A stretch of DNA of 43,347 bases. Source: a virus. The stretch covers positions 1 through 43,347 of the IMG/VR virus record IMGVR_UViG_3300003324_000374; one strand, written 5' to 3'. Both the position numbers and the translations under genes were made by a program. The notes beneath the pieces were generated by a model. The model worked only from the letters and a program-made list of their open reading frames with translations, was not told the DNA's origin and did no database searches. Below are positions 3,606-42,535 of this stretch, piece by piece. How positions within the stretch are numbered: position 1 is the stretch's first letter; each line of letters opens with the position of its first letter.

Positions 3606-3764
3606 ATGAGATATTTACTATTAATAATATTTTTATTTTCGCAACAAACATGGGCTAAACAGAATTTTTATACTCATAGACAAATCATAGAAATCGAAAT
3701 AGCTTTATGCGATCAGCTACCAAAAAATCGTATATTTCGATGTTTGATGGAGATCAGCCAATGA
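3606..3764 (+). CDS. Small secreted protein with Sec signal peptide (52 aa)
   Basis: GAGGG precedes the ATG. Residues 1-17 (MRYLLLIIFLFSQQTWA) form a convincing signal peptide with an AxA-like end. The mature part has two cysteines (C35, C46) that could form a disulfide in the periplasm. It overlaps the next start by ATGA. A periplasmic protein inside a replication operon is odd; superinfection exclusion or an envelope role is possible but not shown. Confidence 0.6.
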   Translation: MRYLLLIIFLFSQQTWAKQNFYTHRQIIEIEIALCDQLPKNRIFRCLMEISQ

Positions 3765-5257: not shown

Positions 5258-6058
5258 ATGAAAGGGGAAAATATATTATTTCCAATCGGTAGATTAGTTA
5301 TGGGTTCTGTTTATAAGCCAAATGATAAAAATGCTGAAGGAGCGCCATTAACCGATAGAAATGGTAATCCACGTGTTCAATATTTCATTGCTTGCGCAAT
5401 AGAAAAGAAGGGAGAAACTCACTGGAACCAAACAGAATGGGGCAAGAAAATCTATGAAATAGGGGCCAGAGGATTTCCAAATGGTCAAGCTCAATCGCCT
5501 AGCTTTGCCTGGAAAATAGTTGATGGAGATAGCCAAATTCCAAATAAGAAAGGGAAGAAACCATGCGACAGAGAAGGTTATCCAGGTCATTGGGTATTAA
5601 GTTTTACTCATGGATTTGCCCCAATACTCTGCAATGACCGAAGTGAACTATTAAATCAACCGGAAGGTTTTATTAACTGCGGAGACTTCATTCAAGTTTA
5701 TGCAACTGTGGCGGATAATGGTAGCCAGCAGCAACCAGGAGTTTACTTAAATGGCACGCATGTCGCTTTTATCGCTTATGGTGAACGTATTGTTTCTGGT
5801 ATTGATACTACAACTATCGGGTTTGGTGGTGCATTACCCTCTGGCGCAAGCAAAACTCCAATTAGCTCAGGATTTAACCCTGCTCCTGCTGCTACATCTG
5901 TAGTTCCTCCTATGCCAGCAGCACCTCCAGCATATCCAAATATCTTAAAACCACCAAAGGTTATGACACCTAAAGCTAATGGAATTGCCTATGAAGAATA
6001 TTTAAAACAAGGTTGGACAGATGAATTATTGATTCAGCACGGTTATATGGTTGGTTAA
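5258..6058 (+). CDS. DUF2815 family single-strand DNA-binding-like protein
   Basis: 266 residues starting after AAAGGAGATTGTT. The N-terminal 180 residues match the DUF2815 pattern: fPiGRLVMGSVYKPN, then RVQYFIACAIEKKGE, then a glycine- and tryptophan-containing core with FINCGDFIQVY. This family is thought to be an OB-fold, SSB-like replication protein. An Ala/Pro-rich linker (about 200-235) leads to a short conserved tail, YEEYLKQGWTDELL, which may contact partner proteins. Neighbouring nuclease and polymerase genes support a role in replication or recombination. Confidence 0.88.
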   Translation: MKGENILFPIGRLVMGSVYKPNDKNAEGAPLTDRNGNPRVQYFIACAIEKKGETHWNQTEWGKKIYEIGARGFPNGQAQSPSFAWKIVDGDSQIPNKKGKKPCDREGYPGHWVLSFTHGFAPILCNDRSELLNQPEGFINCGDFIQVYATVADNGSQQQPGVYLNGTHVAFIAYGERIVSGIDTTTIGFGGALPSGASKTPISSGFNPAPAATSVVPPMPAAPPAYPNILKPPKVMTPKANGIAYEEYLKQGWTDELLIQHGYMVG

Positions 6059-6106: not shown

Positions 6107-6715
6107 ATGAATATACATAGTCAAGTAAACATTTTAAATAAGATAATTTTTCCAATATTTTCGGGTAAACAATTATATATGCATAAGACTTCAAATAAAA
6201 ATTTGATTTTACCAAATGGATTTGAAGAATATAAAAATCCTATATCCAACATGCTATCCATGATTAATGATTGTGATGGTGACATTTACATAACAATTGA
6301 TGAAAAAATGATTAATAAAAATGAATCTCATAGACGTGGGGGAATCCATACGGATGGGAATTATATTTATGGATGGGGAGGTGGCGGAGGATGGTTAACA
6401 GGAGAAAATGGTAGAGTTTTATCTAAAGAAAAACATGATAGACAATATATGTCTACTTCTGGAGGAATGTTAATAGCTTCTACTTTTAGTGCATGTAAAG
6501 CCTGGAAAGGAAAAGTAAATGGATATATTGGACAAGGAGGAAATTGCGACCATTTATCTTCTCAATTGCATTCTTGCGAAGAAATAACTTTAAAAGAAAA
6601 TATTGTTTATTTCATGAATTCAACAGGTATACATGAATCTTTACCAGTTTTACAAAATGTAAAAAGAAGTTTATTGAGAATAACATTACCGCATGATTTC
6701 ATATTGGAGAATTAA
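6107..6715 (+). CDS. Putative 2-oxoglutarate/Fe(II) oxygenase-fold protein
   Basis: 202 residues with AAAAGGAGA upstream. Seen directly: H81-T-D83 in RRGGIHTDGN, a distal H176 in STGIHESLP, and R187/R191 in a following strand (KRSLLRITLP). This HxD...H...R order and spacing is the metal and co-substrate signature of the double-stranded beta-helix dioxygenases. A glycine-rich loop (GWGGGGGW, 89-96) follows the first strand. Its place between DUF2815 and DNA polymerase suggests a nucleic-acid substrate such as a modified base, but that is inference. It could also act on a protein, or be a cupin-fold protein without this chemistry. Confidence 0.6.
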   Translation: MNIHSQVNILNKIIFPIFSGKQLYMHKTSNKNLILPNGFEEYKNPISNMLSMINDCDGDIYITIDEKMINKNESHRRGGIHTDGNYIYGWGGGGGWLTGENGRVLSKEKHDRQYMSTSGGMLIASTFSACKAWKGKVNGYIGQGGNCDHLSSQLHSCEEITLKENIVYFMNSTGIHESLPVLQNVKRSLLRITLPHDFILEN

Positions 6716-6716
6716 G

Positions 6717-8936
6717 ATGATCCCTTTACCTCCAAAATTAGAAGATTTACGTGCTGGGCATCAATTAAAAGCCGGTCTTGGAATATCCACGATTCTCCCG
6801 GATATCGATTTTGAAACTTATTCTCCGGAAGGATTTGTGTTTAATAAAGATACTCAGAAATTTTCTCCACCACATGGGGCGAACATAAAAGGCTTATCAG
6901 TAGTTGGTGCCGCAAGATATACTGAAAACCCAGATGCAGAAGTATTGTGCTTAGCCTACAACTTGAAAGACGGCTCTGGAGCAAAACTATGGAAACCTGG
7001 AGATCAATTACCTAAAGATTTATTGAATTATATTTCATCAGGGAACCTAATTGAGGCCTGGAATGTTGCATTCGAGTTTTGGGTATGGAATAATATCTGC
7101 GTACGAAAGTACAATTTCCCTCCATTACTTCCTCTCCAAATACGATGCGCGGCTGCCAAGAGCCGCGCCCACGCCCTACCCGGTTCTCTTGATCCTGCGG
7201 GCAAAGTGGTAAATATTAAAAACAAAAAAGATAAAGACGGTAAACGATTAATCACTAAATTCAGCATACCTAGAAATCCGACATTGAAAGATAAACGACT
7301 TCGCATTACTCCAAATGATGATCCCGAAGATGCTTCAAATCTTTATAAATACTGTTTAAGAGATATTGAAGCAGAAGCTGAATTGTCTTCATTAACTCCA
7401 GATTTATCAGAAGATGAGTTGAAATTCTGGCAATGCGATCATGCTATTAATGTTAGAGGCATTCAAATTGACATCGAGCTTATTAATAATTGTATTAGCA
7501 TTTTGGAACAAGCCTATAAAAAATATGATGAAGAATTATGCAAGATTACGTGGGGAACGGTCAGTTCTGCAAGTCAATTACCTAGTCTGAAAAGATGGAT
7601 GATTGAACAGGGTATACCTGTAGATAAATTAACTGCCGATGACTTGGAAGATTTAAAAAAGGTAATACCTAGCAATCGACCTGAAATACATAGAGCTTTA
7701 GACATACGGTCTATGACTGGTTCGGCTTCTGTTAAAAAACTCTATGCGATGGCAAATCAAGTAACACGTGACAATCGTCTACATGATTTGTTTATTTATC
7801 ATTCAGCACGTACCGGACGCGCGGCAGGTACTGGGCCCCAACCTCAGAACTTGCCGAATAGCGGGCCAAATGTCAATGAATGTATTTGCGGTAAATATTA
7901 TCGAGTTCATGGAGATTGTCCATGGTGTGGTTCTCTTAAAGATAAATCTGTTGAATGGAACCCCAAAGCTGTAGAAGACGCCATTGAAATATTAAATACT
8001 GGCAGCCTGGAATGCGTCGAATATTATTTTGGCGATGCGGTTGAAATTATCTCTTCATGTCTTCGAGGTATGTTTATATCTGCTCCAGGTAAAGACCTAA
8101 TCTGTTCTGACTACAGTGCGATTGAAGCAGTAGTATTAGCGGCTTTAGCGGGAGAACAGTGGCGACTAGATGTATTTAATACTCACGGTAAAATTTATGA
8201 AACTTCGGCTTCTAAGATAACCGGAGTTCCTTTAGAAGAATACGAATTATATAAATCATCTTCTGGAACCCATCACCCTGACCGTAAATTAGGAAAAGTG
8301 GCAGAGTTAGCCTCAGGTTACCAAGGTGCACGAGGAGCGTGGAAAGCTTTTGGAGCAGATGAATTTTTCACTGATGAAGTCATTGATGAAAAAGTTAAAG
8401 CATGGCGCGCGGCATCTCCTAATATAGTGAGACTTTGGTATGGATTAGAAAGCGCTGCGCAAAGTGCAGTATTAAATTCGGGAGAATGGTTTGAATATAA
8501 AGGATTAAAATACATCTGTAAACAAAATATACTATACTGTCGTTTACTATCAGGTAGATTAATAACTTACCATAAACCAATATTATCACCTCATGAAAAA
8601 TTTGAAGGTAAACTATCACTCAGTTTTGAAGGTTGGAACACTAATCCAAAGTACGGAAAAATTGGATGGGTGAGAATGAGCACATATGGGGGCAAATTAA
8701 CCGAGAATGTTGTGCAAGCTACCGCGAGAGATATTTTAGCGCACGCTGTGATTAGATTAGAAACCATCGGATACAAAGTCGTATTACACGTGCATGATGA
8801 AATCGTGGTTGAAATAGAAGAAGGATATGGCTGCGTGGAAGAAGTAGAAGCTATTATGAGCGCAATGCCAGAATGGGCAAAAGGGTGGCCGGTCAAGGCT
8901 AAAGGAGGTTGGAGAGCTAAGAGGTATAACAAATGA
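6717..8936 (+). CDS. polA: DNA polymerase, family A, with 3'-5' exonuclease
   Basis: The replicative polymerase, 739 residues. The start at 6717 is chosen for GGAG 8 bases upstream. Exonuclease motifs: D31-F-E33, N116 in AWNVAFE, and Y212-x3-D216. Polymerase motifs: A is D465-YSAIE470, B spans K524 to GYQG (534-537), and C is H693-D-E695. A four-cysteine knuckle (C389, C391, C401, C404) is inserted between the PQPQNLPN segment and motif A. No 5' nuclease domain is present, as is normal for phage enzymes. The stop overlaps the next start (ATGA). Confidence 0.95.
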   Translation: MIPLPPKLEDLRAGHQLKAGLGISTILPDIDFETYSPEGFVFNKDTQKFSPPHGANIKGLSVVGAARYTENPDAEVLCLAYNLKDGSGAKLWKPGDQLPKDLLNYISSGNLIEAWNVAFEFWVWNNICVRKYNFPPLLPLQIRCAAAKSRAHALPGSLDPAGKVVNIKNKKDKDGKRLITKFSIPRNPTLKDKRLRITPNDDPEDASNLYKYCLRDIEAEAELSSLTPDLSEDELKFWQCDHAINVRGIQIDIELINNCISILEQAYKKYDEELCKITWGTVSSASQLPSLKRWMIEQGIPVDKLTADDLEDLKKVIPSNRPEIHRALDIRSMTGSASVKKLYAMANQVTRDNRLHDLFIYHSARTGRAAGTGPQPQNLPNSGPNVNECICGKYYRVHGDCPWCGSLKDKSVEWNPKAVEDAIEILNTGSLECVEYYFGDAVEIISSCLRGMFISAPGKDLICSDYSAIEAVVLAALAGEQWRLDVFNTHGKIYETSASKITGVPLEEYELYKSSSGTHHPDRKLGKVAELASGYQGARGAWKAFGADEFFTDEVIDEKVKAWRAASPNIVRLWYGLESAAQSAVLNSGEWFEYKGLKYICKQNILYCRLLSGRLITYHKPILSPHEKFEGKLSLSFEGWNTNPKYGKIGWVRMSTYGGKLTENVVQATARDILAHAVIRLETIGYKVVLHVHDEIVVEIEEGYGCVEEVEAIMSAMPEWAKGWPVKAKGGWRAKRYNK

Positions 8937-29945: not shown

Positions 29946-31560
29946 CGAATATCCCTCCGCCTCTTTTTTTCTGTGGTGAAAAAGCTATCATAACAGCATC
30001 CGCTAAGTTAGGGGAAGCCACGCCATCTGGAGTTTTATCAACAATTATTTTACCCACATTATTCTGGGTATAAGTCGGTCGCGATAATTCCGTTATCAAT
30101 CTATTTAATTCTGGTAATTCTTTAGGAATACTGATTATATTTTCTACATCATACTCTATATTTTCGGTAACTGCACGATGTGTTTGTTGAAATCTTAATC
30201 GAAGTGACCACCACGCTTGGGCTTTTGCATTTGCGAAGAAGTCGAAATTAGTTCGGCCCTTCCCTGGACCTCTAGCTTGTCCTTGTTTCAAATATGGGTC
30301 TTTATCCGGGTCAACAACTTCTCCAGACCCTCTGAAACTATTGAAGCGTATGTCTTTAATGTTTTGGGAAATTCGTCTTTCGTTAATAACTCTAGCGTCT
30401 CCCCTAACACCGGCTCCCAAACCGTCTGCGTCATATAACACGCTAGCATAATCCAAAATATCGCATAAAGTGAAAACTTTTTCAACACTTTTAAAGATGT
30501 CCTCGCCTTTTCCAGACCAAGATTCCAAATATTCGAGTAATATGCCAAATCTACCGCAGAAAGCATTTTTATCTTTTCCTTCATCCGCTACGTCCATTCC
30601 CGCTATTCTAATTCCAGAAGGTTCTATCTTTAATTTTTTATGGGCATCTATAGCTGATTGAACCCATGCGCTTGGAATTAAAACACCCTCAATTGACGCA
30701 GAGTAATCTAAATCTACTTCTTGAGCAACCACTACTGGATCATCAAGTTGGTCGCATATTTTTTTATACCATTCATCATCTTTGCGCGGGTCATCTCTCC
30801 AATGCAACGTAAAAACAGAAACTTTCCCGCTGTGCCTTTTTTGGGCAAAAGGATTATTCATTCCTCTCGGTGTGCTAATATCTATTCTGCAATTTGTAGT
30901 ATTTGATAAGGAAGCTTCTACTAACATCGGCCTAGGTAGCCATGCGGATTCATCAACAAAATAAATTGCTTTACGATCTCCACGCCCTATACCATCTCCT
31001 GCTTCTCCTGATATGACAGCGCGTGTTTCTGGAAAAGTAATTCTCATATGCGCTGAATGTTTTTTAGCATCCCACCCATTGCTAAATTCAGGAGGTATTA
31101 CTCTAAGAAACATCCTTGCTTTTTCAAAGATAGATTTTGGGTCTCCTCTTTGGTCCACATATTCTTCTTTTCTACTTCCAAAACCAATGGAGAGCCCATC
31201 ATAAAATAAACACATTGTGCAAGCGAACGCAATCGATAACCAACTTAATCCCATGTCTCTGCTTTTGTCACTTATTCCTCTTTCTCTATTTTTCCAATTA
31301 TTAAATGCCCAATTGACCCATTCTTCCTGTTTTTCAAATAATAAAAAGGGAATACTGGCAGGTAATCCAATTTCAACATTTCTTGGATCACTAGTGCACC
31401 CCCAATCTATTATAAATTGAGCAGGATTTTCTTTGTAGAATAATTTTAATGCAGATAAGCATGACGGATTTTTACGAATAGCTGCAAGGCGTTCGACTCT
31501 ATAGCCAAACACCCTTGCATAGTCAGGTTTTTTAAAATCAAATTCAAAAGGAATTGGCAT
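29932..31560 (-). CDS. terL: Terminase large subunit
   Basis: 542 residues; the packaging motor with ATPase and nuclease domains. Walker A is the deviant K99-SRDMGLS (99-106), Walker B is IYFVD203-E204 and the coupling motif is DISTPRG (227-232). Nuclease acids: D323 in GMDVADEG, D377/D379 in [10 protein letters not shown], and a late aspartate in [10 protein letters not shown]. The start overlaps the stop of the previous gene (TAATG). The small subunit is not adjacent but lies about 5.5 kb upstream, separated by the fiber genes. Confidence 0.95.
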
Positions 31561-31820
31561 TATTCTGCCTTATCTAATTCTTCCTTTGCTTTTTTATCTG
31601 CTTCTTCCTTCGCTTTTTTATCTGCTTCTTCTTTTGCTTTTTGTTCAGCTTCAATTTTTTCCCTTTGAAGTTTAGCGTGAGCTTCTTGAGCGGCTTTATT
31701 TAATCCATTTCTCACATTATCTACATATTTTTGCGGTAAATGGACACTAGATTCGCTCAGAACCGTGAATATTTCTTTAACTAACCCTAATGAAATTTCA
31801 ACAATAGCATTATCTTCCAT
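31560..31820 (-). CDS. Coiled-coil protein with KAKEEAD repeats (86 aa)
   Basis: A hydrophobic N-terminal helix ([20 protein letters not shown]) precedes a Lys/Glu/Ala-rich helix that ends in three near-identical repeats of A(D/E)KKAKEE. GAGGAAATT precedes the ATG. The repeat is encoded by repeated DNA (about 31570-31640), so copy number may vary. No function assigned. Confidence 0.7.
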
Positions 31821-31851
31821 AATTTCCTCAAATGAAATAAATTAAACAACT

Positions 31852-31880
31852 ATTATACTCTATCTATAGTTCAGAAGCTA
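31852..31880 (-). promoter_or_regulatory. Possible promoter before the TerL block
   Basis: A perfect -10 TATAAT (31852-31857, minus strand) lies in the 60-base gap before the 86-residue gene, preceded by AACTATAGATAGAG. The -35 is poor. The TATAG element recalls class 1 sites but the second half-site is missing. It could raise expression of TerL, portal and head genes. Confidence 0.35.
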
Positions 31881-32420
31881 CTAGTAAGTCTCAATAATAG
31901 TAGATACTGAAGTTGTACCTGTACCAGAGGCCATTAGTCGATAAGTAGCTCCAGCAGGAACTAAGAAACTTAAAGTATTTGTTGCATTGGATAATGCAAG
32001 CCCACCTACTCCCCATTGTCCTACGGTTATATATCCAGAACCCGTATCTACTTGAGCAGTAATCACGCTAGTCTGAAGAACAGTAACTGAAATTCCAACT
32101 AAGGCATTCACGTGGACGTCAGCATTAACATTCGGAGTTCTTGGGGAATTGAAAGCTGGACTAGAAACAGAATGTAATGTTTTCGAAGCCGGTACCGAGT
32201 CTTCTAAAGTTTTTAAAAACTTCCACACTAATTGGGTATTAACTGCGGGATCGCCATATGAAGTATTAGGTGCAGCTGTGCAAAACCATATTCTATTGTT
32301 AATAGAATTACGCCATTGGCAGCCATATTGAATTATACCGTCATCCCAAGGTTCACTCGAAGTAGGATCGTGATCAGCAGTTAGTCCACCATTCATCCAA
32401 TCATATACTGGTTGAGCCAT
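31881..32420 (-). CDS. Virion surface/fiber-associated protein (179 aa)
   Basis: The start at 32420 (MAQPVYDWMNGG) is chosen for TAAGGAGATTTAAA upstream. The N-terminal 85 residues have aromatic and Cys features (YGCQWRNSINNRIWFCTAAPN) of a small attachment domain. The last 90 residues are beta-rich with a Gly/Thr-rich repeat-like tail (ALSNATNTLSFLVPAGATYRLMASG), a common build of phage head-fiber or receptor tip proteins. It continues the C1q-like cluster. Confidence 0.65.
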   Translation of the reverse strand: MAQPVYDWMNGGLTADHDPTSSEPWDDGIIQYGCQWRNSINNRIWFCTAAPNTSYGDPAVNTQLVWKFLKTLEDSVPASKTLHSVSSPAFNSPRTPNVNADVHVNALVGISVTVLQTSVITAQVDTGSGYITVGQWGVGGLALSNATNTLSFLVPAGATYRLMASGTGTTSVSTIIETY

Positions 32421-32431
32421 TTTAAATCTCC

Positions 32432-32896
32432 TTATCCTAAATATTTTACAAACATCCACGAAACATATGGGCCAGTGCCTCCGGCTATTCCTACAGAAGC
32501 AGTAGAGCCATTGTTTAATTGTGCTCCTACTGAAATTGTAGAGGCTGCCGCACAATCAGTTACTATCATACCATTTGTGCAGAAAGTATTAGTTGTAGTT
32601 TTAGCAGCTGTACAAGCATATTCCGATAGCCTATATGTGTTACCACCACCTGCAATAGTGCTTAAATTTCCATTTGCGCCGTTAATAATATTAGTAAACT
32701 TAAACGATGTACAAATCAAATAATTACCTGCGACTGGAACTGTATATTGACCTGTAGCCGCATTGTATCCAGAACCGAATAATACCGTATCAAATAAAAT
32801 TGTATAACCCGTGCCATTACCTGTAACGTTGGATACTGGAGTATTCAAATACACGAATAAAGCTGGCACTGTTCCTCTGTTTAAAATACTTGTCAT
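32432..32896 (-). CDS. C1q-like beta-sandwich virion protein (154 aa), paralog 3
   Basis: The start at 32896 overlaps the previous stop as TAATG. The core reads SNVTGNGTGYTILFDTVLFG, YNAATGQYTVPVAGNYLICTSF, the strand order of C1q/TNF-like jelly rolls. Two upstream neighbours share the same (S)NVTG(N/D)GT start and the G..tcaG.YlfC core, so all three are paralogs. They are probably trimeric receptor-binding or head-fiber tips. Confidence 0.7.
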   Translation of the reverse strand: MTSILNRGTVPALFVYLNTPVSNVTGNGTGYTILFDTVLFGSGYNAATGQYTVPVAGNYLICTSFKFTNIINGANGNLSTIAGGGNTYRLSEYACTAAKTTTNTFCTNGMIVTDCAAASTISVGAQLNNGSTASVGIAGGTGPYVSWMFVKYLG

Positions 32897-33339
32897 TAAA
32901 ATAACCTCGTGGCTTGAAAAGTACATCCATTTCCAAATCCAATAGATAAAGTTGTTCCAGATACTTGAACAGTGAGTTTCGCGGTATCATTTGCTGCCAT
33001 CGGAGCAATTACATATCCCCCCATGGTGCCTACTGAAGCTTGACTTCTAAGAGCTCCCGCGTTGAAATTAGCAAAAGTATAGGTTCTTTGAGTAGTAACT
33101 AAATTAAAAACAGCGGTAGTGGCTGAAGAATTTAAAGAAGTAACACTCGGGATTGCGCAGAATAAAAACGTTCCTGGAACTGTACATGTGAATACGCCTG
33201 AAGCAATTACAAACCCAGAACCTTGCGTTAAACTACTATAAACTGTTTGATAAACGGTGCCATTTCCTGTAACATTGCTGACCCCCGTTTGTATGGCAAT
33301 GAATCTTTGCGAAGTATTACTATTAACCATGTTAGCCAT
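32896..33339 (-). CDS. C1q-like beta-sandwich virion protein (147 aa), paralog 2
   Basis: Shares SNVTGNGTVYQTVYSSLTQGSGF and GVFTCTVPGTFLFCAIPSV with its neighbours. The start overlaps the previous stop (TAATG), and its own stop overlaps the next start. Sequence drift among the three copies is large in the second half, as expected for receptor-binding surfaces. Confidence 0.7.
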   Translation of the reverse strand: MANMVNSNTSQRFIAIQTGVSNVTGNGTVYQTVYSSLTQGSGFVIASGVFTCTVPGTFLFCAIPSVTSLNSSATTAVFNLVTTQRTYTFANFNAGALRSQASVGTMGGYVIAPMAANDTAKLTVQVSGTTLSIGFGNGCTFQATRLF

Positions 33340-33788
33340 TAGGGTAATCTCGTTATTGATAATGTGCTTAATGTATCAAAATTAACCGTTTTAGTGCTTC
33401 CGCTAACTACAACATTCCATTGAGCCGTATCACCTACTGCCATTCTAACTGGGGTAACGCATGGCGTAAGAGTCATTGAATTTGCCGCATTTCTCCCATT
33501 TCCGATTCTAAATTCACATGTTTGAAAACTTCCCCCAGTTGCTACCAATGTTGCGGTGCATAAAGTATGGGAAACAGTAAGATTACTCATTTGTATCACC
33601 GGACAAAACAAATAATCCCCCGCAATTGCGCATGTGAAAACACCAGTTCCGGTATTATATCCACTTCCATAAACAACATTGTTCCAAACTAGCGTATATA
33701 ATGTACCATCTCCAGTAACACTTGTTGCAGCTACTGTCAAAGTAGCAAACAAATTTGGAGTAGTTTGAGCCTGTATGATATTTGTCAT
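33339..33788 (-). CDS. C1q-like beta-sandwich virion protein (149 aa), paralog 1
   Basis: The start at 33788 (MTNIIQAQTTPNLF) is chosen because it overlaps the fiber stop as TAATG. The core is TSVTGDGTLYTLVWNNVVYG, YNTGTGVFTCAIAGDYLFCPVI. It is the first of three tandem paralogs that follow the long fiber, and probably forms a distal tip or accessory fiber. Confidence 0.7.
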   Translation of the reverse strand: MTNIIQAQTTPNLFATLTVAATSVTGDGTLYTLVWNNVVYGSGYNTGTGVFTCAIAGDYLFCPVIQMSNLTVSHTLCTATLVATGGSFQTCEFRIGNGRNAANSMTLTPCVTPVRMAVGDTAQWNVVVSGSTKTVNFDTLSTLSITRLP

Positions 33789-36700
33789 TAAGTTACCACC
33801 AAATTTAACCCCAAGGCTGGATAAACTATCCACTTACCTGCAATTGGTTTTAAAGTAATTGCATCTGTTGCTGACCCAGAAGTTGCTTGAATGTTTCCAG
33901 CCGCCGCACTCACAGATGATCCAAATTGGATAACATCTGTTCCTACCGCAGTCGCCATGAAGCCAGAAGTACTTGAAGTTGAAAGCCCAACAATTTCAAT
34001 GGGCGCTCCACCAGCCGTAGCCGCAGGAAGAGTAATCGCGCATTGGCCTCCTGAATAATTAACATAATATCGAACCCCATTGACCGCAGTTTGTGTTGAA
34101 CCTGTAATGGTAGATTCGCTTGTTATGATTAAATTAGAAGCACTTCTAAAGTTACCGCTGCCATCTGTAATAACCAGAGAACTAGCCGAAACCAATCCTA
34201 CTTGGAAATTTCCGCTGGTATCTACTCTCCATGCTGTATTCCAAGCAATGGTACTACCTTGAGCAACGCCCCCTTTACAATTTAAAGAGAATAAGTCTAA
34301 TATTTTTACAAATTGATAATTGCTTCCACTACTATAGGAAGACCGCGAATTTGTTCCATCAAAATAGCAATCAAAGTTTAAATATTGTTCTCCATGTTGT
34401 CTGGCTATCAAATTGACTAAAGGAAAACCATCTGTTTGCGTATATAAATTCAAAGAGCTATTTGTGGTGGAATTATTACCGACAATGTTTAAACGTGCTG
34501 CCTGCGTTAAAGTAGGAGGGGCTACAGAATTCAACATCAACTGAGCTAAATCAAAACTGCCGCCACTAGCAGTCGTGATCGTTCCTCCTACTCGCGCCAT
34601 GATAGTATTATCTGTTACAAATGGAATGTCCACTGCTCCCGCAGCTTGCATCTGAAAACCAATGGCTGGGACAATAGGAGTTCCCGCTGATCCACTTGTC
34701 GCACTCTTAAAGAATATACCACTTGACCCTACTTCAACTGTAAAAGCATTTCCAGTTCCATTAAATTTGTAGGTTCCTGCTCCACCGTCCCAATCTAAAT
34801 TGTAAGATAAAAATGCAGTTCCTGCGGAAGTCACGCCAACATTTCTACCGGATCCTCCAAGATTAATATAATCTCCATCCGAAAGAATCGAAGCAAAAAT
34901 AACGGGAGCTACTGTCCCTAATAATGGTCCACCACTTCCACCATTATTAAAAGTTAATCCGCCAAGTGTATAAAATCCAGTTGCATTATTTATTATCCTG
35001 CCCGTATCAACAGATAATAAACTACTAGCGGAAGGTAAAGTTGGTAATTGTATAAATCCATCATTTAATATTAATAGACTTGTATTTAGAGAAGCTGTTG
35101 CACCACCAGTTGGGTTTTGTTGATATCTGAATGCAATTCCACCGCTAGCTACTTCAATGGCAAATACATCTCCTGTATTTACAACCTGATATCCTGGAAT
35201 TGAATTATTATAATTTAAATTATATGTTAAAAACATTGTATTTGAATAAACACCGATGTTTCTACCTGATCCTTCTAAATTCATTAAATTACCAGTGCTA
35301 TAGTTTGTTGCAAAACTAATTGCTGGTGTAGTATTAGTCAAACCAGTAGAAGAAGTCCCTAATCGTAAAGTTTCTAGTGAACTTCCAAATGGAATAGTCA
35401 CTCGTCCAGCAGAGTCTATTTCCATTCCAAGATTCATTGTTCCTAGAATATTACCTTGCGCTGCAGTTCCCCATAGAAAATTAAGATGTCCTGAATTTTT
35501 AGTTATTTGCCAAGCTATTGAACCAGTAGAAGCTCTTAAAAAAGAACCGTCAAAATAACAATCAAAATTTAAATCAACATTATCATGGTTTAATGGGGAG
35601 ATTTGGAACAATGGATAATTGTCAGTATTATTGTACCAATTTTGCGCATTTGCCCCTGCAGTTCCTGTGGCATACAAATTCAACATTTGTGGGGAGATTA
35701 AAGATGTCGGAGGTGTAATTCCAAAATAAATTCCAGAATCACCTTGTTTTACAAACCCTGAAAGAGGCAATCCTGAATCTTGGAGCTTACCTCCAATTGT
35801 ATTAAAGGTAGCCACATTGCCGACAACTACCGGTAGGCCGGCTACATTTTGGAAAGTTGTGCCACCATCTTGGCTTAAATACCAATTCAAAGCACCTTGT
35901 GCAAGATTATCAGTAGAATTAAATCCGCCGAATTGCGAAGTATCTAAGATAGTAACACCAGCTTGCGTTATTATAACGGGGTCAGCCGTTGCGCTATCAT
36001 TTGATATCCAAAATTGAATTGATTCACTTGGGCCAGTTACAGGCAAATTATAAGATATGTTTATTTCTTGTGGTCCTGGAGCACCTGAAGGGCTTACCGT
36101 AACAGAACTAATGGCCGCTGTTGTTATAGTTGGGCTACCAGCAATTACTAAATAAATTGAATATGTTTGCGTAAGTACGCTTGATGTTCTTAGCGTAAAT
36201 ACTGCATCTACTTTCAATTGTCTTAAGGCACCTGTTAAAAAATTCGCATTAGGAGTATCGCCAACTAAAGTACCATTGAAGTTATTTTGATAAATAACAT
36301 GCATGTTGTCCGATAAGATTGGCGTTGGTGTCATTGAACCACTAAAAGTAGTGGGCATAGAATTTGCATATATGTAAAAATTGCATTGTCCAGAAGTTAC
36401 CGCAGAAGGACCGCTAGTAGCGGCGATGGCTATTGTACCGTCACCATTGTTAATAATGCTGACATTGGCTCCTGGTAAAACTTTACCAACAGTTAGCATG
36501 TTTAAAAATTGAGTTCCGTCCCATTGATCTACACTTTGAAAATCGGTGTTGTAAACCATTAATCCACTATCGGGAGTACTTAGAGTCGTGCCTAATGCTT
36601 CTTCTTCTACCAAAGTCATTCTAGGAAAAGGAAGGGTACCTTGTGTCGTAGAATCTACTTGGAAAGATGCATTAGGATTTGCAGTACCTATATTTATGCC

Positions 36701-36862
36701 AAAAGTACCATTTATAAAATTCAAATTTCCCGCAGAAATATCTATCTGCTTAGGGGATGAATTATCGTAAGCAACCTGAAGAGAAACCGTCGTAGGAGGA
36801 TTCCCGCCCGTTGCAACATGGAAAACTTCACACCATTTTAAAAATTCTGCGGCTGTTATCAT
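33788..36862 (-). CDS. Long tail fiber protein (about 1024 aa)
   Basis: The start is taken at 36862 (MITAAEFLKWCEVF) for its ATGA overlap with the previous stop; an ATG 12 bases earlier is possible. The sequence is low in charge, rich in Gly, Ser, Thr and Asn, and strand-dominated. FGINIGTANPNASFQVDSTTQGTLPFPRMT and the SGLMVYNTD..SVDQWDGTQF pair are typical of fibers built on long beta stems. Several sub-repeats recur with GS/GR(N)(I/V)G(V)(Y/T)S and LNFDCYFDGS/T (about residues 420 and 850). Host recognition is the probable role. Confidence 0.82.
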   Translation of the reverse strand: MITAAEFLKWCEVFHVATGGNPPTTVSLQVAYDNSSPKQIDISAGNLNFINGTFGINIGTANPNASFQVDSTTQGTLPFPRMTLVEEEALGTTLSTPDSGLMVYNTDFQSVDQWDGTQFLNMLTVGKVLPGANVSIINNGDGTIAIAATSGPSAVTSGQCNFYIYANSMPTTFSGSMTPTPILSDNMHVIYQNNFNGTLVGDTPNANFLTGALRQLKVDAVFTLRTSSVLTQTYSIYLVIAGSPTITTAAISSVTVSPSGAPGPQEINISYNLPVTGPSESIQFWISNDSATADPVIITQAGVTILDTSQFGGFNSTDNLAQGALNWYLSQDGGTTFQNVAGLPVVVGNVATFNTIGGKLQDSGLPLSGFVKQGDSGIYFGITPPTSLISPQMLNLYATGTAGANAQNWYNNTDNYPLFQISPLNHDNVDLNFDCYFDGSFLRASTGSIAWQITKNSGHLNFLWGTAAQGNILGTMNLGMEIDSAGRVTIPFGSSLETLRLGTSSTGLTNTTPAISFATNYSTGNLMNLEGSGRNIGVYSNTMFLTYNLNYNNSIPGYQVVNTGDVFAIEVASGGIAFRYQQNPTGGATASLNTSLLILNDGFIQLPTLPSASSLLSVDTGRIINNATGFYTLGGLTFNNGGSGGPLLGTVAPVIFASILSDGDYINLGGSGRNVGVTSAGTAFLSYNLDWDGGAGTYKFNGTGNAFTVEVGSSGIFFKSATSGSAGTPIVPAIGFQMQAAGAVDIPFVTDNTIMARVGGTITTASGGSFDLAQLMLNSVAPPTLTQAARLNIVGNNSTTNSSLNLYTQTDGFPLVNLIARQHGEQYLNFDCYFDGTNSRSSYSSGSNYQFVKILDLFSLNCKGGVAQGSTIAWNTAWRVDTSGNFQVGLVSASSLVITDGSGNFRSASNLIITSESTITGSTQTAVNGVRYYVNYSGGQCAITLPAATAGGAPIEIVGLSTSSTSGFMATAVGTDVIQFGSSVSAAAGNIQATSGSATDAITLKPIAGKWIVYPALGLNLVVT

Positions 36863-37062
36863 TGTGCTATCCATTGAGAAATGTTAGTGACATCGCTTCC
36901 GTTGTATGTAAAAGTTTGAACATAATCTGTTTCTACTCCTGTCTGACGACTTGGATAAGTTACAGTTATTGTTTGCACATTGCTTCCAGCATAAGTGAAA
37001 GTCATTTCTAGGCTATCTAAGGGCAATTGCGTGCCATCATTGGCACTGACGGTTTCTGACAT
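36859..37062 (-). CDS. Small beta-rich virion protein (67 aa)
   Basis: Two strand repeats of the pattern MTFTYAGSNVQTITVTYP and VQTFTYNGSDVTNISQW suggest a short duplicated hairpin. It lies between TerS and the long fiber and overlaps the fiber start (ATGA). It may be a fiber adaptor. No family recognised. Confidence 0.65.
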   Translation of the reverse strand: MSETVSANDGTQLPLDSLEMTFTYAGSNVQTITVTYPSRQTGVETDYVQTFTYNGSDVTNISQWIAQ

Positions 37063-37066
37063 CTGA

Positions 37067-37501
37067 CTAACTCCCTGTTGTCGTCATGATTTGTTCATAT
37101 ATTCTACCTGCTTCTATTGGGTCAGTGGTAGTTATTTTTAACTCAAGAGGCGAATTTTTGTCTGTTTTGATTTTAGCGTCTAAATTAAATTTACTTTCTT
37201 GCAGCCATTTCGCTTTTCGTTCTAGATAAAATAAAATACATTTAACATCGCCTTCTTCTACTTTTTCAAAGAATTTACTTACTACGAAATCTAAAGTTTT
37301 AGTTCTTCCTTTTTTAATTCGTTTCTTTATTTCAGGATGTTTTTTAGAAAGCAAATACCAAGAACCCTTTTTTATACCAAAATGAGCGCGTATTTGCTCT
37401 TGAGTGAACTCTTTACTTGATAATTCCTCTATTTTGTTCAAAAACTCATCATTGACATCGGCCACGGGTTTTGGCCCCGGTTTCTCTCGTTTCTTAGTCA
37501 T
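37067..37501 (-). CDS. terS: Terminase small subunit
   Basis: 144 residues, first late gene after the promoter at 37521-37549, with GGAGGA 7 bases before the ATG. A helix-turn-helix follows a disordered start (FTQEQIRAHFGIKKGSWYLLSKKHPEIKKRI, about 35-65), then a helical oligomerisation part (FFEKVEEGDVKCILFYLERKAKWL). This is the common TerS plan: it recognises the packaging site and feeds DNA to TerL. The adjacent structured DNA at 37560-37900 could contain that site. Confidence 0.8.
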   Translation of the reverse strand: MTKKREKPGPKPVADVNDEFLNKIEELSSKEFTQEQIRAHFGIKKGSWYLLSKKHPEIKKRIKKGRTKTLDFVVSKFFEKVEEGDVKCILFYLERKAKWLQESKFNLDAKIKTDKNSPLELKITTTDPIEAGRIYEQIMTTTGS

Positions 37502-37520
37502 GTTAAATCCTCCTGCCTAA

Positions 37521-37549
37521 ATTATACCCTTTTAATTTCCCACAGTAAA
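37521..37549 (-). promoter_or_regulatory. Late promoter
   Basis: On the minus strand TTTACT (37544-37549), 17 bases, TATAAT (37521-37526), then GGAGGA and the terS start. The -10 is perfect. It is the only strong promoter upstream of the 26-kb late block. It carries neither class 1 nor class 2 palindrome. Confidence 0.75.
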
Positions 37550-37659
37550 CACGTGCCCGAAGCAACCAATTTTATTCATATTTTTGGTTAAGTCCGCGTT
37601 CGGATTTTCGTTCGGTCTTCTATATAACTCTTTAATTATATTAATAATATTAATAATAA

Positions 37660-37883
37660 TGGACTGAAGCCCGAACCATATATAAATTTTCTAGAAAACA
37701 GAAGGTATAGTATAGAATATATGTATAAGTATGGTATACTATACCTTCTGTTTTATATAGGATGTATCATGACGATTTGTTCGGGGATTGGGTAATACAA
37801 AACCCTGCAGCCCTTGGTAGACGTGGGTTTCCCGAAGACCGGAGTAAATTTTGTCCGTTCGGGCTTGTTCGGGCTTCAGTCCA
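37660..37883. repeat. 17-bp perfect inverted repeat (outer)
   Basis: Left arm TGGACTGAAGCCCGAAC (37660-37676) and right arm GTTCGGGCTTCAGTCCA (37867-37883) are exact reverse complements 190 bases apart. They flank the inner hairpin. The right arm ends a doubled GTTCGGGCTT. Confidence 0.9.
37695..37754. repeat. 20-bp perfect hairpin (inner)
   Basis: Arms 37695-37714 and 37735-37754 are exact reverse complements (the right arm contains CTATACCTTCTG), with a 20-base loop. A 20-bp perfect stem could extrude as a cruciform in supercoiled DNA. No U-tract pattern of a terminator for any neighbouring gene is obvious. Confidence 0.92.
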
Positions 37884-37958
37884 GAATTCTTGATAGGTTT
37901 ATTGCTAGAGGGATTAGTAGGTTATCATTAAATATTGATATAGTAAAGAGGATTAAAT

Positions 37959-38249
37959 ATGATTTCATATTACGACGCCGTTTCAAATAATTTAGCCGTA
38001 TATAATGATGGAAAACCGTGTAAACAGAACCACCCAAACGCTAGGTATGTTAAAACAAATCAATGTGTTTATTGTTCTCGCGAAGCTAAAAAACGAAGTC
38101 ATGAGAAAATTAGGATTGAAAAAATTAACAATGGGACTAGGACATACATTCAAGTTACCGTTCAAATACATCGAGAAGACCATCAAGCTTTACAGATTTT
38201 TGTAAATCAATTAAATATTGACCGTCAATTAACAGAAGCTGGATTATAG
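37959..38249 (+). CDS. Small zinc-binding protein, HNH/treble-clef-like knuckles (96 aa)
   Basis: GAGGAT lies 7 bases before the ATG. DGKPCKQNHPNARYVKTNQCVYCSREAKKR (17-46) has the C-x3-H...C-x2-C layout seen at the start of phage HNH-type and treble-clef proteins, but no HNH catalytic histidines follow. The C-terminal part (TYIQVTVQIHREDHQALQIFVNQLN) looks like a short dimerisation or DNA-contact strand and helix. Confidence 0.7.
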   Translation: MISYYDAVSNNLAVYNDGKPCKQNHPNARYVKTNQCVYCSREAKKRSHEKIRIEKINNGTRTYIQVTVQIHREDHQALQIFVNQLNIDRQLTEAGL

Positions 38250-38317: not shown

Positions 38318-38728
38318 ATGTTTTTAAAAAAACTATGCGCATTTAGCTTTGCGTTTTTTATGACGACTGCTACATTCGCGGCAAACGAGGAAATAGCCGT
38401 ATGTTCCATGAGCGTGATATTGGCCGTTCATTCTCCTATGCCTACCGATTTTTTTAGCGACCATGGCGTACAAATCACAAATGCATCTTCATACCCCATG
38501 AATTACAAAATAGTTTATGCTCATGAGATAATGAATATGCTTAACGATAAAACTACGTTAAATATTGTAGTAAATCCGGGTCAGACTTACACTGACATAA
38601 AAAGATTCACTAGTAAGAAAGTATGGGATACTAACGGACAATACTATACTCGTTCTATGACGATGATCAGTGTTGACGGTAAAAAAGTAGCTAGTTGCGC
38701 GAATAACAATTATGCATATGTAACTTAA
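38318..38728 (+). CDS. Secreted protein (136 aa)
   Basis: A clear Sec signal peptide (residues 1-21: KKLCAFSFAFFMTTATFA) ends in TFA-A. The mature 115 residues are beta-rich with a few cysteines (C28, C129), and the strand pattern YPMNYKIVYAHEIMN...LNIVVNPGQTYTDI looks like a small immunoglobulin-like or chaperone-type domain. GGAGG lies 12 bases before the ATG, a long spacing. No family recognised. Periplasmic or secreted; an envelope-modifying or superinfection-exclusion protein is possible. Confidence 0.7.
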   Translation: MFLKKLCAFSFAFFMTTATFAANEEIAVCSMSVILAVHSPMPTDFFSDHGVQITNASSYPMNYKIVYAHEIMNMLNDKTTLNIVVNPGQTYTDIKRFTSKKVWDTNGQYYTRSMTMISVDGKKVASCANNNYAYVT

Positions 38729-38740
38729 TCTAGGCGGACT

Positions 38741-38968
38741 ATGAAGAAATACTCTACTAAAGAAGTTGCCGAAGTATTGGGGGTGTGTCACCAACGTATT
38801 TCGGCAAAATTAAAGCAAGGCCACTTCCCCGGCGCTCACAAATGTGAATGTGGTCGTAGTATACTAATACCTGAACATGACGTTCTTAATCAACCTAAGA
38901 AGAGGAATGACAGGTATGAAAAAATTAATCGTAATTCTCCTCGCGAGTCTGATATCGATCACGGCTGA
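38741..38968 (+). CDS. MerR/excisionase-like HTH protein (75 aa)
   Basis: YSTKEVAEVLGVCHQRISAKLKQGHFPGAHKC (4-35) is a winged-helix MerR/Xis-type DNA-binding motif, with the typical FPGA turn. GRSILIPEHDV follows. C33/C35 are near each other. The tail is polar and overlaps the next gene. It may regulate its own class 1 promoter or act in DNA organisation. There is no integrase, so an excisionase role is unlikely. Confidence 0.8.
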   Translation: MKKYSTKEVAEVLGVCHQRISAKLKQGHFPGAHKCECGRSILIPEHDVLNQPKKRNDRYEKINRNSPRESDIDHG

Positions 38969-39317
38969 TGCTGGAAGTAGCGGCTCATGCGGCTCGAAAA
39001 TATCATGCAAATCGGGACAAAGTGCCAATTGTGAAATGATGGACGGCACTTATAATATCTTCTTCCAGGCTTCTTTTTTGAATTTAACTTTCCCAATAGA
39101 TTTATTTTTAAGCGAAGTCTATGCTTATAAAATAAATAATAACGGAATTGTGGACTGTTATTATTCAAAAAATTCAAAGCCGGAAGAAGTAGTGGTGTTT
39201 AAAACAAAGGAACATCATAACGTGATACCAAGGGATGCATCAGAGTGGATAGCGAGATACGACGTTTTATTTTGTGATCCCGTTAACCACCCTTGCTTTT
39301 TATATATACTATATTAA
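38916..39317 (+). CDS. Secreted Cys-rich protein (133 aa)
   Basis: The start at 38916 (MKKLIVILLASLISITADA) gives a clean signal peptide; AGGAATGACAGG precedes it. The mature part begins GSSGSCGSKISCKSGQSANC, with C-x5-C-x7-C spacing, and has three more cysteines (DCYY, FCDPVNHPC), so disulfides in the periplasm are likely. It overlaps the HTH gene by 53 bases in another frame. No family recognised. Confidence 0.65.
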   Translation: MKKLIVILLASLISITADAGSSGSCGSKISCKSGQSANCEMMDGTYNIFFQASFLNLTFPIDLFLSEVYAYKINNNGIVDCYYSKNSKPEEVVVFKTKEHHNVIPRDASEWIARYDVLFCDPVNHPCFLYILY

Positions 39318-39486: not shown

Positions 39487-39688
39487 CACTATGCTTTAAT
39501 TTAGCTACTGCTTCTGTTATCGCGTCATTGAATGAATTAAAACAATCCGTGCATACATCTTCTTGCTTGAAACGATCTCTCAAAATATCCATTAGTGCTA
39601 CCGCAGCGCCCGATTTGGGCGCATACAGCATTTTTGCATCGTGAGATTCTTTTTTACATAAATCGCATTTATATATGGTAATTTTCAT
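39473..39688 (-). CDS. Small zinc-finger protein (71 aa)
   Basis: Two knuckles, CDLC (8-11) and CTDC (46-49), with a helix between, make a simple four-cysteine zinc site. The protein ends in an alanine- and lysine-rich helix. It overlaps the primase stop by ATGA. A role in the replisome or in regulation is possible. The C-terminal codons double as a class 1 promoter. Confidence 0.7.
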   Translation of the reverse strand: MKITIYKCDLCKKESHDAKMLYAPKSGAAVALMDILRDRFKQEDVCTDCFNSFNDAITEAVAKLKHSVDKL

Positions 39689-42012
39689 GATTGTGCTTCC
39701 TTATAAGCTTTGATGATTAATTTAGGATCAGTTATTTCCATGTCTTTATGGCCAATTTTTATATATAACCTGGGCTTATTTGTTTCTCCCGGCATTACGA
39801 TTGGTGTCCTGCCTTCTTTAAGATGAGGGTGCCAATCATATCCTAAAGATTGCAATAGCTCTCTTCTTTTGTTCCTCGCAATGCGTTTGTCTGCTCCAAT
39901 TTCTTTAAGTAATAAATCTAATGGCGCAGAGCATATCCAACCACCTTTGAATCCTACCTTCTCAGATTCCACGGCTTCTAATATCTCATGCTCAACTCTT
40001 CCGAAACCATGTTGAATAGCGTCTTCCGTAGTTGAAGTAATAGGCGCACGTGTGCATTTAAGAGGATTAAACTCATCTTGAATTGGATAATTTAAGAAGA
40101 AATGAGCCATATTAGCGAAGCCGCCTTTATTAGCCCATTCATATAAGTCTGGGAAATATTCTCCCATCATGTCATCTTTAATTAAATCTTCTACGCATTG
40201 TTGCGCTGTATAAAATATAGCAAATCTCCTATCATCTTTAGATTTTCTAAGAGCGTCCTTGTGGTTAGAGTTAATGATGTAGTTACAACAAACGTCTTTC
40301 ATGACCTTCTTTTTACCTTTTCCTTCAATCATTCTACGTTCGAGATCGATCATAGGTTTGAGGGCTTCCATAATCTCAGCGCGAGAATCAGGATAATAAG
40401 CATCTTCAATGGACACAAATATTGTGCCTTCTTCCCAATCGTTAAACTTGCTGGCGATTTCTTCTGCGCGAGGAGAACGTGTATAGCAATCGCCTATTAT
40501 GTATGCGACTAATCTTGAAAAGAACGTTTTACCATTACCTTGCGTTCCTTGAAGCACAATACACCATTTAAACTTCTTACCGATATATTGAACAAGAGCA
40601 GCTATATAATTTATGATAATATCTTGGTCTCTTTTGTTGGGAAATAATTTTTGGATATGATTCATTAATGGCGTGATATCACCTTCAGTAGCTACGCATT
40701 TATATGGCCAATATCGGTTAACAACTAACTCTCCATCATTATTAAACACGTGGCCAAAAGGTAAGTCTGGCCGAAAAGTACTACTGTTAACTTTTGGAAA
40801 TTTTGCCCCTGTTGATAAGGTAAATGAGTCCCAGGCTTTGTTCGTTGTCTTGGCATTGTTATGATCCATGACGAAGGTATAGCCGCCATACATCACGTTA
40901 AATCGATCTCTATCTAATAAATATCCGCCTGGAATTAAAATTGAATTTTCATGACAAACATAAGTGCACCCCTGATAATATTCAATCTGTTCCTGGATAG
41001 TAAGAAACCCGTTCCCAGACGTGCCTATGATTTGACCTTTATCTTCAGTCTTGTTAGAATCCTGTTGCTTGTTTTTAGAAAAACATCCTGTGTTCTTACC
41101 GCGGGCGTTCCTAATCGTTCGCGGTAAATAATCCTCTCTTTCCCATTTCTCGCGATATAATTTTGATTTTTTCATAAGGGTTAACATCCGCTCTGCATTA
41201 CATCCAGTCCAGAAAGCTAGATGCTGCGCAAGTGCCGCGTCTGCACTAGAACGGTTATATACGTCAGTATCGTGCGGATAAAACCGGGACAATTCATCCT
41301 CATTATTTTCCCATAAATCTTGAAACGTAGCGCTGGTATTTTGACCAAATTTAGCTTTCATGCTCTTTGATGAGCATGCCATTCTGATAAGTTCCTCATC
41401 ATCTTCTGGCCCATTCCACTCTTCCATTGGTTTGTCAGACCACCAGTCCTTATCGATAGTTGAAACTGATTGAGAATTAAAATATTCAGCATTAATTTCT
41501 TTAAGAGCTTCCGTAAAATCTAAAGCTGCATCTCCTGCCGCGTGAATACCTGTTAAAGCAATAAAACGTTTGGATGTATAGAATTCCAAGCCTAATTTAT
41601 CATTTCTACATCCATGATCAAAATCAGCGCAAGAAGCAATAATATGTAATCCTCTTCCTGATGTTGATACTTCTATTGCGGCGCCAGCTAATTTCTGCAA
41701 TAGAGATTTTGATAGTTCCGACCATCCAGTAGCTTGGTCATAGCATGAGTCTATATCTAACAAAAAGAACGGATCGGACTCAGTAAGAACGAATCCTACT
41801 CCATAAGACTCACCCAATGATTTTGCAGCGATTGAAGCTAAATCAAAATCCATCCATATGGACGGATCGTGAGCATCCCAAGTTTGTCCAGTTTTATGAT
41901 TTATTGGACGTTTGATTTTTTTATTTACATTAGATGGATTATCGGTTATTGAGTATACTATAAATTGATGATATTTTTTAAGTGAATTGAATGCCGCTGG
42001 TAATATATCCAT
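39685..42012 (-). CDS. Primase-helicase: PrimPol-like N-terminus, SF3 helicase C-terminus
   Basis: 775 residues. N-terminal primase-polymerase domain (about 1-180): FFLLDIDSC (82-90) with the metal-binding acidic pair, STSGRGLHI (116-124) and KRFIALTG (148-155). A linker leads to a D5/DUF5906-type helicase: Walker A GTQGNGKT (489-496), Walker B-like IFVSIED (531-537) and the NSNHKDALRKSKDDRRF sensor/arginine region. It would prime and unwind at the replication fork, working with the DNA polymerase and SF2 helicase. AAAGGGAAT precedes the ATG. Confidence 0.92.
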   Translation of the reverse strand: MDILPAAFNSLKKYHQFIVYSITDNPSNVNKKIKRPINHKTGQTWDAHDPSIWMDFDLASIAAKSLGESYGVGFVLTESDPFFLLDIDSCYDQATGWSELSKSLLQKLAGAAIEVSTSGRGLHIIASCADFDHGCRNDKLGLEFYTSKRFIALTGIHAAGDAALDFTEALKEINAEYFNSQSVSTIDKDWWSDKPMEEWNGPEDDEELIRMACSSKSMKAKFGQNTSATFQDLWENNEDELSRFYPHDTDVYNRSSADAALAQHLAFWTGCNAERMLTLMKKSKLYREKWEREDYLPRTIRNARGKNTGCFSKNKQQDSNKTEDKGQIIGTSGNGFLTIQEQIEYYQGCTYVCHENSILIPGGYLLDRDRFNVMYGGYTFVMDHNNAKTTNKAWDSFTLSTGAKFPKVNSSTFRPDLPFGHVFNNDGELVVNRYWPYKCVATEGDITPLMNHIQKLFPNKRDQDIIINYIAALVQYIGKKFKWCIVLQGTQGNGKTFFSRLVAYIIGDCYTRSPRAEEIASKFNDWEEGTIFVSIEDAYYPDSRAEIMEALKPMIDLERRMIEGKGKKKVMKDVCCNYIINSNHKDALRKSKDDRRFAIFYTAQQCVEDLIKDDMMGEYFPDLYEWANKGGFANMAHFFLNYPIQDEFNPLKCTRAPITSTTEDAIQHGFGRVEHEILEAVESEKVGFKGGWICSAPLDLLLKEIGADKRIARNKRRELLQSLGYDWHPHLKEGRTPIVMPGETNKPRLYIKIGHKDMEITDPKLIIKAYKEAQS

Positions 42013-42033: not shown

Positions 42034-42339
42034 TTATTTGGAGAGATACAAAATTACCTTTGCCCGAAGTTTCGAGTCAAGCTTTTTAGTCAAAGGATCG
42101 TTAAGTACCATGCCTTGCGCAATTATTTCCACGATTTCATCTGAGATAGCCTGCTTCATCACCAAGTGTTTAAGGTTATCTATGGATTGAAAATATCGTG
42201 TCACTAAACCATACGACACACCCGCTCGTTTTGCCACTCCATCTCTTGTTATATGGCTATAGCCTATCTCTTTGGATAGGTCTATAGCTACTGATAATAA
42301 TTCCCCTTTTCGTTCTGTTGGTAATTTTCTTTCTCTCAT
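42034..42339 (-). CDS. TetR-like HTH regulator, short (101 aa)
   Basis: The start at 42339 (MRERKLPTERKGELL) lies one base after the previous stop, with GGGAT upstream; an earlier in-frame ATG at 42444 is within the neighbouring zinc-protein gene. GYSHITRDGVAKRAGVSYGLVTRYFQSIDNLKHLV is a textbook TetR DNA-binding domain. The ligand-binding domain is missing; only about 35 residues follow. Short TetR-like proteins of this build are known from phages. It is the best candidate to bind one of the two palindrome classes. Confidence 0.82.
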   Translation of the reverse strand: MRERKLPTERKGELLSVAIDLSKEIGYSHITRDGVAKRAGVSYGLVTRYFQSIDNLKHLVMKQAISDEIVEIIAQGMVLNDPLTKKLDSKLRAKVILYLSK

Positions 42340-42340
42340 T

Positions 42341-42535
42341 TTATAAATCCCGTTGTTCCCCGCAGTCCTTACATACCGTGTAAGAGCCGCCTTCAGGGTC
42401 AGTAAAATTTTTGTAAACTTTCGTTCGAGAATGTTTACAGCCATTTATTTTGGCCAAGCATTTCTTGCAGACTATGGCCTTTTCTCTTAACATGATTTTC
42501 AATCCATCGAGTCTTCCGCATTCCTTGCACATCAT
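42341..42535 (-). CDS. Zinc-ribbon protein (64 aa)
   Basis: The start at 42535 is chosen because GGAG lies 7 bases upstream; an ATG at 42550 has no site. Two pairs of C-x2-C knuckles, CKEC and CKKC, then a third, CKDC near the C-terminus, suggest a zinc ribbon plus an extra knuckle. YKNFTDPEGGSYTVCKDCGEQ resembles small phage zinc fingers. Its stop is one base before the TetR-like start. Confidence 0.72.
   Translation of the reverse strand: MMCKECGRLDGLKIMLREKAIVCKKCLAKINGCKHSRTKVYKNFTDPEGGSYTVCKDCGEQRDL

Follow-up and report, generated by a model that had tools for sequence, protein, structure and literature searches.

The window, i.e., the whole 43,347-nucleotide stretch of DNA that was analysed, belongs to a phage that encodes a contractile tail and a TerL protein (phrog_2). 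It is near complete, since its two ends are contiguous in relatives. The region under study is the gap at 37502..37958 (457 bp), all of which is referred to as the element in the following. On one side it is bounded by terS, which starts at 37501 and is read leftward (minus strand), and on the other by an accessory cassette on the plus strand, where the next sizeable ORF begins at 37959. The respective genes and the replication set of the window are:

37067..37501, minus strand: terminase small subunit (terS; phrog_309, phrog_24579)
37959..38249, plus strand: accessory cassette gene 1, 96 aa, phrog_1081 of unassigned function
39685..42012, minus strand: PrimPol / SF3-type helicase replication protein (NrS-1 polymerase family), candidate initiator
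42034..42444, minus strand: TetR_N helix-turn-helix protein just before the primase (PF00440, phrog_8723), candidate box-binding protein
288-1904: helicase
3707-4807: exonuclease
5258-6058: Gp2.5-like SSB
6693-8936: DNA polymerase

The PrimPol/SF3 helicase matches phrog_1829 (E 1e-123), PF22763 and PF19263 and is related in sequence to the NrS-1 polymerase of known structure (PDB 6k9a, 6k9e and relatives). That is, a replication protein made of an AEP primase and an SF3-type helicase, as expected for an origin of the pRN1 type, is encoded in the window. The element follows about 1.7 kb downstream of the primase gene, where the primase module ends. With regard to the remaining gene content, about 5.5 kb of other genes lie between terS and terL in the window (31560-37062), including one for a 1028-aa protein without Pfam or PHROG match, while both are adjacent in Jedunavirus and Scuro. 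Two cassette proteins (38318-38728 and 38877-39317) have signal-peptide-like N termini and no family match; both are kept in the related contigs L005 and L007. Furthermore, a Klebsiella pneumoniae MAG contig (L041) gives a partial match, with a PrimPol that is 47% identical.

Within and around the gap, the following features were located:

37521..37549, minus strand: predicted late promoter of terS, TTTACT-17-TATAAT, followed by the ribosome binding site GGCAGGAGG; conserved in L005 and L007
37556..37561, minus strand: TTCGGG box immediately upstream of the -35 of the late promoter, kept in both L005 and L007
37598..37619, plus strand: two TTCGG boxes (37599, 37611), the second being GTTCGGTCTT
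37617..37766, no strand: AT-rich core, candidate unwinding element; least stable 150 bp of the 43-kb window
37660..37676, plus strand: left arm of the 17-bp repeat, holding an inverted TTCGGG box and starting with GGACTGAAG, which is conserved in L005 and L007
37695..37754, no strand: 20-bp perfect hairpin with 20-nt loop; lineage-specific
37762..37893, plus strand: 43-codon ORF read from the sequence, possible leader peptide, weak ribosome binding site
37780..37785, plus strand: TTCGGG box
37811..37827, no strand: 17-bp segment CCCTTGGTAGACGTGGG; at the corresponding position, L005 has its exact reverse complement and L007 the same with one mismatch
37831..37836, minus strand: TTCGGG box
37857..37876, plus strand: tandem GTTCGGGCTT pair with 10 bp spacing, within a 31-bp block identical in L005
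37867..37883, plus strand: right arm of the 17-bp repeat

A preliminary description of this DNA had pointed to the gap, its two inverted repeats, an AT-only-like run, a doubled GTTCGGGCTT and further GTTCGG motifs. All its coordinates proved correct when rechecked on the sequence: the run is located at about 37620-37660, the two copies of the doubled motif start at 37857 and 37867, a third, inverted one is found at 37667, and boxes of the form TTCGGG cluster in the gap. The latter motif occurs there 6 times compared to 0.06 expected (P 9e-11), and at most 1 is found in any other segment of the same size. A repeat cluster, as known from iteron-type origins, is thus present, with TTCGG clustering likewise in the partial contigs L009 and L010. 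Besides the 17-bp (37660-37676/37867-37883) and the 20-bp repeat (37695-37714/37735-37754), the whole 43-kb window holds no perfect inverted repeat that is 14 bp or longer and falls within 300 bp. Averaged over 20 random sequences of first order, the expected numbers are 0.25 (14 bp) and 0 (17 bp). No tRNA, no terminator and no Rfam family at gathering score were found in the region.

The same gap is found in two IMG/VR contigs, L005 and L007, which are about 71% identical. Kept in all three are the late promoter TTTACT-17-TATAAT, the ribosome binding site of terS, most TTCGG boxes and the AT run, as well as GGACTGAAG at the left and the pair GTTCGGGC(C/T)TGTTCGGGCTT at the right. We rejected the central hairpin as a conserved core: its sequence differs in L005, and folding is strong only in the window (z -7.1) and L005 (z -2.9), with no significant hairpin in L007, Jedunavirus, Scuro and SppYZU01. 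That is, the large stem-loop of conserved structure that marks pRN1-type origins is not found here. The 17-bp arms were likewise rejected as a conserved long-range stem, with relatives showing only 5-7 bp of perfect complement, which is at chance level. The two perfect repeats are largely specific to the window phage. The preliminary description had named missing conservation of the arms in relatives as part of what would refute it; the perfect arms are indeed not conserved, but the element taken as a unit is. In addition, the 17-bp CCC...GGG segment at 37811-37827 is inverted in the window compared to both relatives (L005 about 5674-5690, L007 at the same place), perhaps by a small template-switch event.

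More distant homologues are visible only via synteny, since a direct BLAST search of the region against phage records gave no match. Phages with a related primase have the same layout, i.e., a gap of 400-410 bp beside terS or the late operon, which was seen in Acinetobacter phage Scuro, Shewanella phage SppYZU01 and Klebsiella phage JD001. The JD001 gap in turn matches 71 phage records, mostly of Klebsiella and usually in 2-3 places each. In the six genomes inspected entire, on which the copy count rests (JD001, KpV52, SBP, PEAT2, LAPP1, pKp383), there are two copies, one beside terS and one beside a neck gene; a third matching place arises because the record end splits a copy (KpV52, SBP). 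Copies within a genome are more alike than expected by chance pairing (3/720 pairings are as good or better, the true one included), with diverged copies in PEAT2 and LAPP1. The neck-side copies of JD001 (L020 38885-39414) and pKp383 (L025 41389-42042) carry extra tandem units GTTCACTTTTTGATCGGAATGAAATTA... to the right of the element.

A profile of the Jedunavirus copies detects the element on the right strand in Scuro (E 1.6e-6) and SppYZU01 (E 3.7e-9) and nothing else comparable in these two genomes. For the profile of the window clade, the top match is the element on the right strand in 4/5 genomes, at E-values that are not significant given the divergence; neither 60 block-shuffled profiles (0/60) nor the reversed profile reproduced this placement. 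Homology of the window element therefore rests on place and orientation rather than on score. The boxes vary in consensus by lineage: GGGGTA clusters in the elements of Scuro, JD001 and LAPP1, and boxes are weak or absent in SppYZU01, PEAT2 and pKp383. What recurs are G-rich boxes, an AT-rich core and a position next to terS where the primase module ends. An apparent compensatory change is seen in the left box pair, which is TACCCCG/CGGGGTA in JD001 and TACCCTGA/TCAGGGTA in pKp383; it resembles a single event and was discarded as proof of a stem.

The Jedunavirus copies contain a short ORF that starts with ATGTA(C/T)GGGGT and reads MYGVFGYARK(L/P)(L/M)IVKV. An alternative reading of the region is a transcribed leader: a short RNA would encode a leader peptide, its inverted repeats would form alternative stems, and the rightward cassette would be attenuated in this way. 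The Jedunavirus ORF (MYGVFGYARKLLIVKV...) is intact in 24/25 copies having its start, and its N/S per site is 0.20 in frame compared to 1.2-1.4 in the other frames (computed over 16 codons, frameshifted MEW1 omitted), such that it looks coding and under protein-level selection. The ORFs of the window and L005 start at the corresponding place, and the plus strand folds well (z -8.1 in the window, -3.5 in L005). This folding signal, however, stems from the lineage-specific repeats and is equally strong on the other strand, and neither a terminator nor an Rfam match at gathering score was detected. Also, the terS-side copies of PEAT2 and LAPP1 have no such ORF. We rejected the window ORF (37762-37893) as a conserved gene: changes between window and L005 are mainly nonsynonymous and the frame is broken in L007. 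The best-conserved block shows no synonymous change, which argues for constraint at the DNA level. A leader as the main role of the region is thus improbable. With regard to the preliminary description, which had called the gap noncoding, this holds for the 43-codon ORF, which gains no coding support from L005, but less so for its Jedunavirus counterpart. Within the Jedunavirus copies (e.g., L021 13985-14389), the short ORF MYGVFGYARKLLIVKVNSPP shows coding-like substitutions and is unannotated in the records inspected.

We also calculated duplex stability along the genomes. For stretches of 150 bp, the minimum falls on the element in the window phage, Scuro, SppYZU01, KpV52, LAPP1 and pKp383. 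In JD001, PEAT2, LAPP1 and pKp383, no other site is as unstable as either of the two copies. An easily unwound AT-rich segment adjacent to the repeats, as in iteron origins, is therefore found as the least stable site in six phages and with both copies on top in four. In the partial contigs L009 and L010, the element ranks high in instability but not first. DnaA boxes and IHF sites show no consistent excess in the elements compared; in L010, the element contains a single exact DnaA box and a single IHF match. GC skew, which the preliminary description had proposed for locating an origin, gave no signal: the skew tracks gene orientation, and at third codon positions it is about zero on both sides, such that we dropped it.

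A further option is that the region is a packaging initiation site (pac or cos) recognised by TerS. It adjoins terS in all genomes inspected, and the Jedunavirus records KpV52, SBP, ZCEC13, KpTDp1 and HHU1 open inside the element. To judge this, we compared which genes accompany it. The window, Scuro, SppYZU01 and JD001 all have homologous primases, TetR_N proteins, SSBs and exonucleases, and the helicases that were compared are homologous as well. For TerS and the major capsid protein, in contrast, blastp finds no similarity between the window, the Jedunavirus group and the Scuro/SppYZU01 pair. Even within Jedunavirus, TerL is of two types, i.e., type 1 (482 aa) in JD001, SBP and pKp383 and type 2 (461-475 aa) in KpV52, LAPP1 and PEAT2, which have no blastp similarity to each other. 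Still, the JD001 and KpV52 elements are more than 90% identical, i.e., the exchange of TerL left the element unaffected. All these dissimilarities are subject to blastp missing remote homologues. Furthermore, the separation of the element from the head genes is incomplete, since the KpV52-type TerL is distantly related to that of the window (36% over 242 aa) and the portals of window and Jedunavirus are weakly related. The DNA polymerase differs between Jedunavirus and the others, so the element accompanies the primase set and not the polymerase. The swap of terminases itself (L020, L022, L025 versus L021, L023, L024) places unlike TerL at the same locus next to related TerS.

Conservation together with a cognate terminase, as required of a packaging site, is thus not observed; judged by these comparisons, the element is independent of the terminase. 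Moreover, the second Jedunavirus copy lies beside a neck gene and far from terS, the window and two related contigs end elsewhere, and the record ends fall at differing positions of the element, where an AT-rich repeat in two copies is a usual cause of assembly breaks. Jedunavirus IME346, which carries the element, is reported to have no fixed genome termini (PMC9007800). Given the dissimilar TerS, the replaced TerL and the reported lack of fixed ends in this Jedunavirus, a packaging site is very unlikely. In SBP, about 43 bp of the neck copy are missing at the record ends, probably as an assembly artefact; users of published Jedunavirus assemblies should be aware that the repeated element often breaks them.

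The promoters around the element suggest another function, namely a purely regulatory divergent region. Here, a phage transcription factor, most likely the TetR_N protein, would bind the TTCGGG boxes beside the two promoters and switch between accessory/early and late genes, with the AT core providing promoter elements and DNA bending. The conserved leftward late promoter TTTACT-17-TATAAT has a box just upstream of its -35, in JD001 and Scuro the last box is closely followed on its right by cassette promoters (TTGAC-17-TAnnnn), and the TetR_N protein is kept in all phages compared (window, Scuro, SppYZU01, JD001). In Jedunavirus, each of the two copies is also flanked by a block of late genes on one side and by small genes running towards it on the other. 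However, the other divergent junctions of KpV52 span only 58-140 bp and lack such an element, i.e., divergent promoters do without it. The boxes cluster nowhere else, and 300 conserved bp including the core are large for a switch. We therefore regard a switch without further function as rather unlikely, albeit as the strongest of the alternatives.

Our preferred reading, to which we assign a probability of about 0.52, is a replication origin inside the divergent control region from which the late operon with terS is read leftward and the accessory cassette rightward. Since the element follows the genes for DNA copying and not those for DNA packaging, it probably marks where genome copying starts. 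From the preliminary description's proposal of an origin, a packaging site or both, the origin part is thus favoured by the repeat cluster, the weakest duplex, the conservation with the replication module and the place at the end of the primase operon, while the packaging part is weakened by unlike TerS, swapped TerL, the second copy and the reported lack of fixed termini in one Jedunavirus. Origin and transcription-switch functions may coexist. Counting against an origin are the missing skew signal and the lack of a consistent excess of DnaA or IHF sites. In addition, low stability would be expected of AT-rich divergent promoter regions in any case, two Jedunavirus copies would imply two origins, and the box consensus depends on the lineage, down to weak or absent boxes in SppYZU01, PEAT2 and pKp383.

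For such an origin, we envisage that a phage-encoded protein would bind the TTCGGG boxes flanking the AT-rich core; the likeliest candidates are the PrimPol/SF3 helicase (39685-42012) and the TetR_N protein of its operon (42034-42444). The ring helicase would assemble at the boxes and open the core, whose weakness is calculated. PrimPol could then lay the first primers on the exposed strands, and, judging from the gene content, the phage polymerase, the Gp2.5-like SSB and the helicase would continue. Extruded hairpins may aid loading in the window lineage but not in general, and the box beside the late promoter could link replication to late transcription. A more far-reaching version, which we consider doubtful, is a transferable origin-plus-late-switch cassette of virulent myophages with an NrS-1-type PrimPol. 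It would unwind, drive the late promoter and encode a selected leader peptide for the opposing genes, would be duplicated within genomes with a tendency of its copies to stay alike, and would be retained through exchange of head and packaging genes.

For virulent phages, few replication origins have been mapped beyond some model systems. If true, our preferred reading would provide a defined origin of 300-400 bp for a widespread replication module (Jedunavirus, Peatvirus, Scuro-like, SppYZU01-like and uncultivated phages). The PrimPol family of this module has known biochemistry, and we found no mapped phage origin for it. Such an origin would be directly testable in cultured Klebsiella phages.

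Finally, we compared the element with known systems. Phage divergent operator-promoter regions resemble it in their outward promoters with repeated boxes alongside; unlike these, the element is long, occurs once or twice per genome and holds the weakest duplex, while other divergent junctions lack it. For phage NrS-1, to whose polymerase the replication protein of the window is homologous, the PrimPol start site is TTTGGTTA, 8 nt in length (PMC8718748, PMC7102993). We dropped this site as a marker: it is present at 37583, but its 3 genome-wide occurrences in the window are about what base composition predicts (an estimate), and it is absent in L009 and L010. The iteron origins of satellite phage P4 (ori/crr) and of SaPIs, to which an initiator helicase binds, share the repeated boxes near an AT-rich segment. 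P4 also has two cis regions in one genome. In both SaPI and P4, the helicase comes with or is fused to a primase (PMC7581432, PMC4234260), with the difference that P4 alpha has a primase of TOPRIM type. For pRN1 and phage BIP-1, which have AEP-SF3 proteins, origins were proposed downstream of the replication gene (PMC4234260). The pRN1 origin depends on an intact stem-loop of about 100 nt and lacks iterons, whereas here the stem-loop is unconserved and boxes and AT-rich core are kept; in addition, other genes separate the element from the primase, and it is doubled in Jedunavirus. Shared with pRN1 and BIP-1 are the build of AEP PrimPol plus SF3 helicase, the noncoding element downstream of it and a co-encoded small DNA-binding protein.
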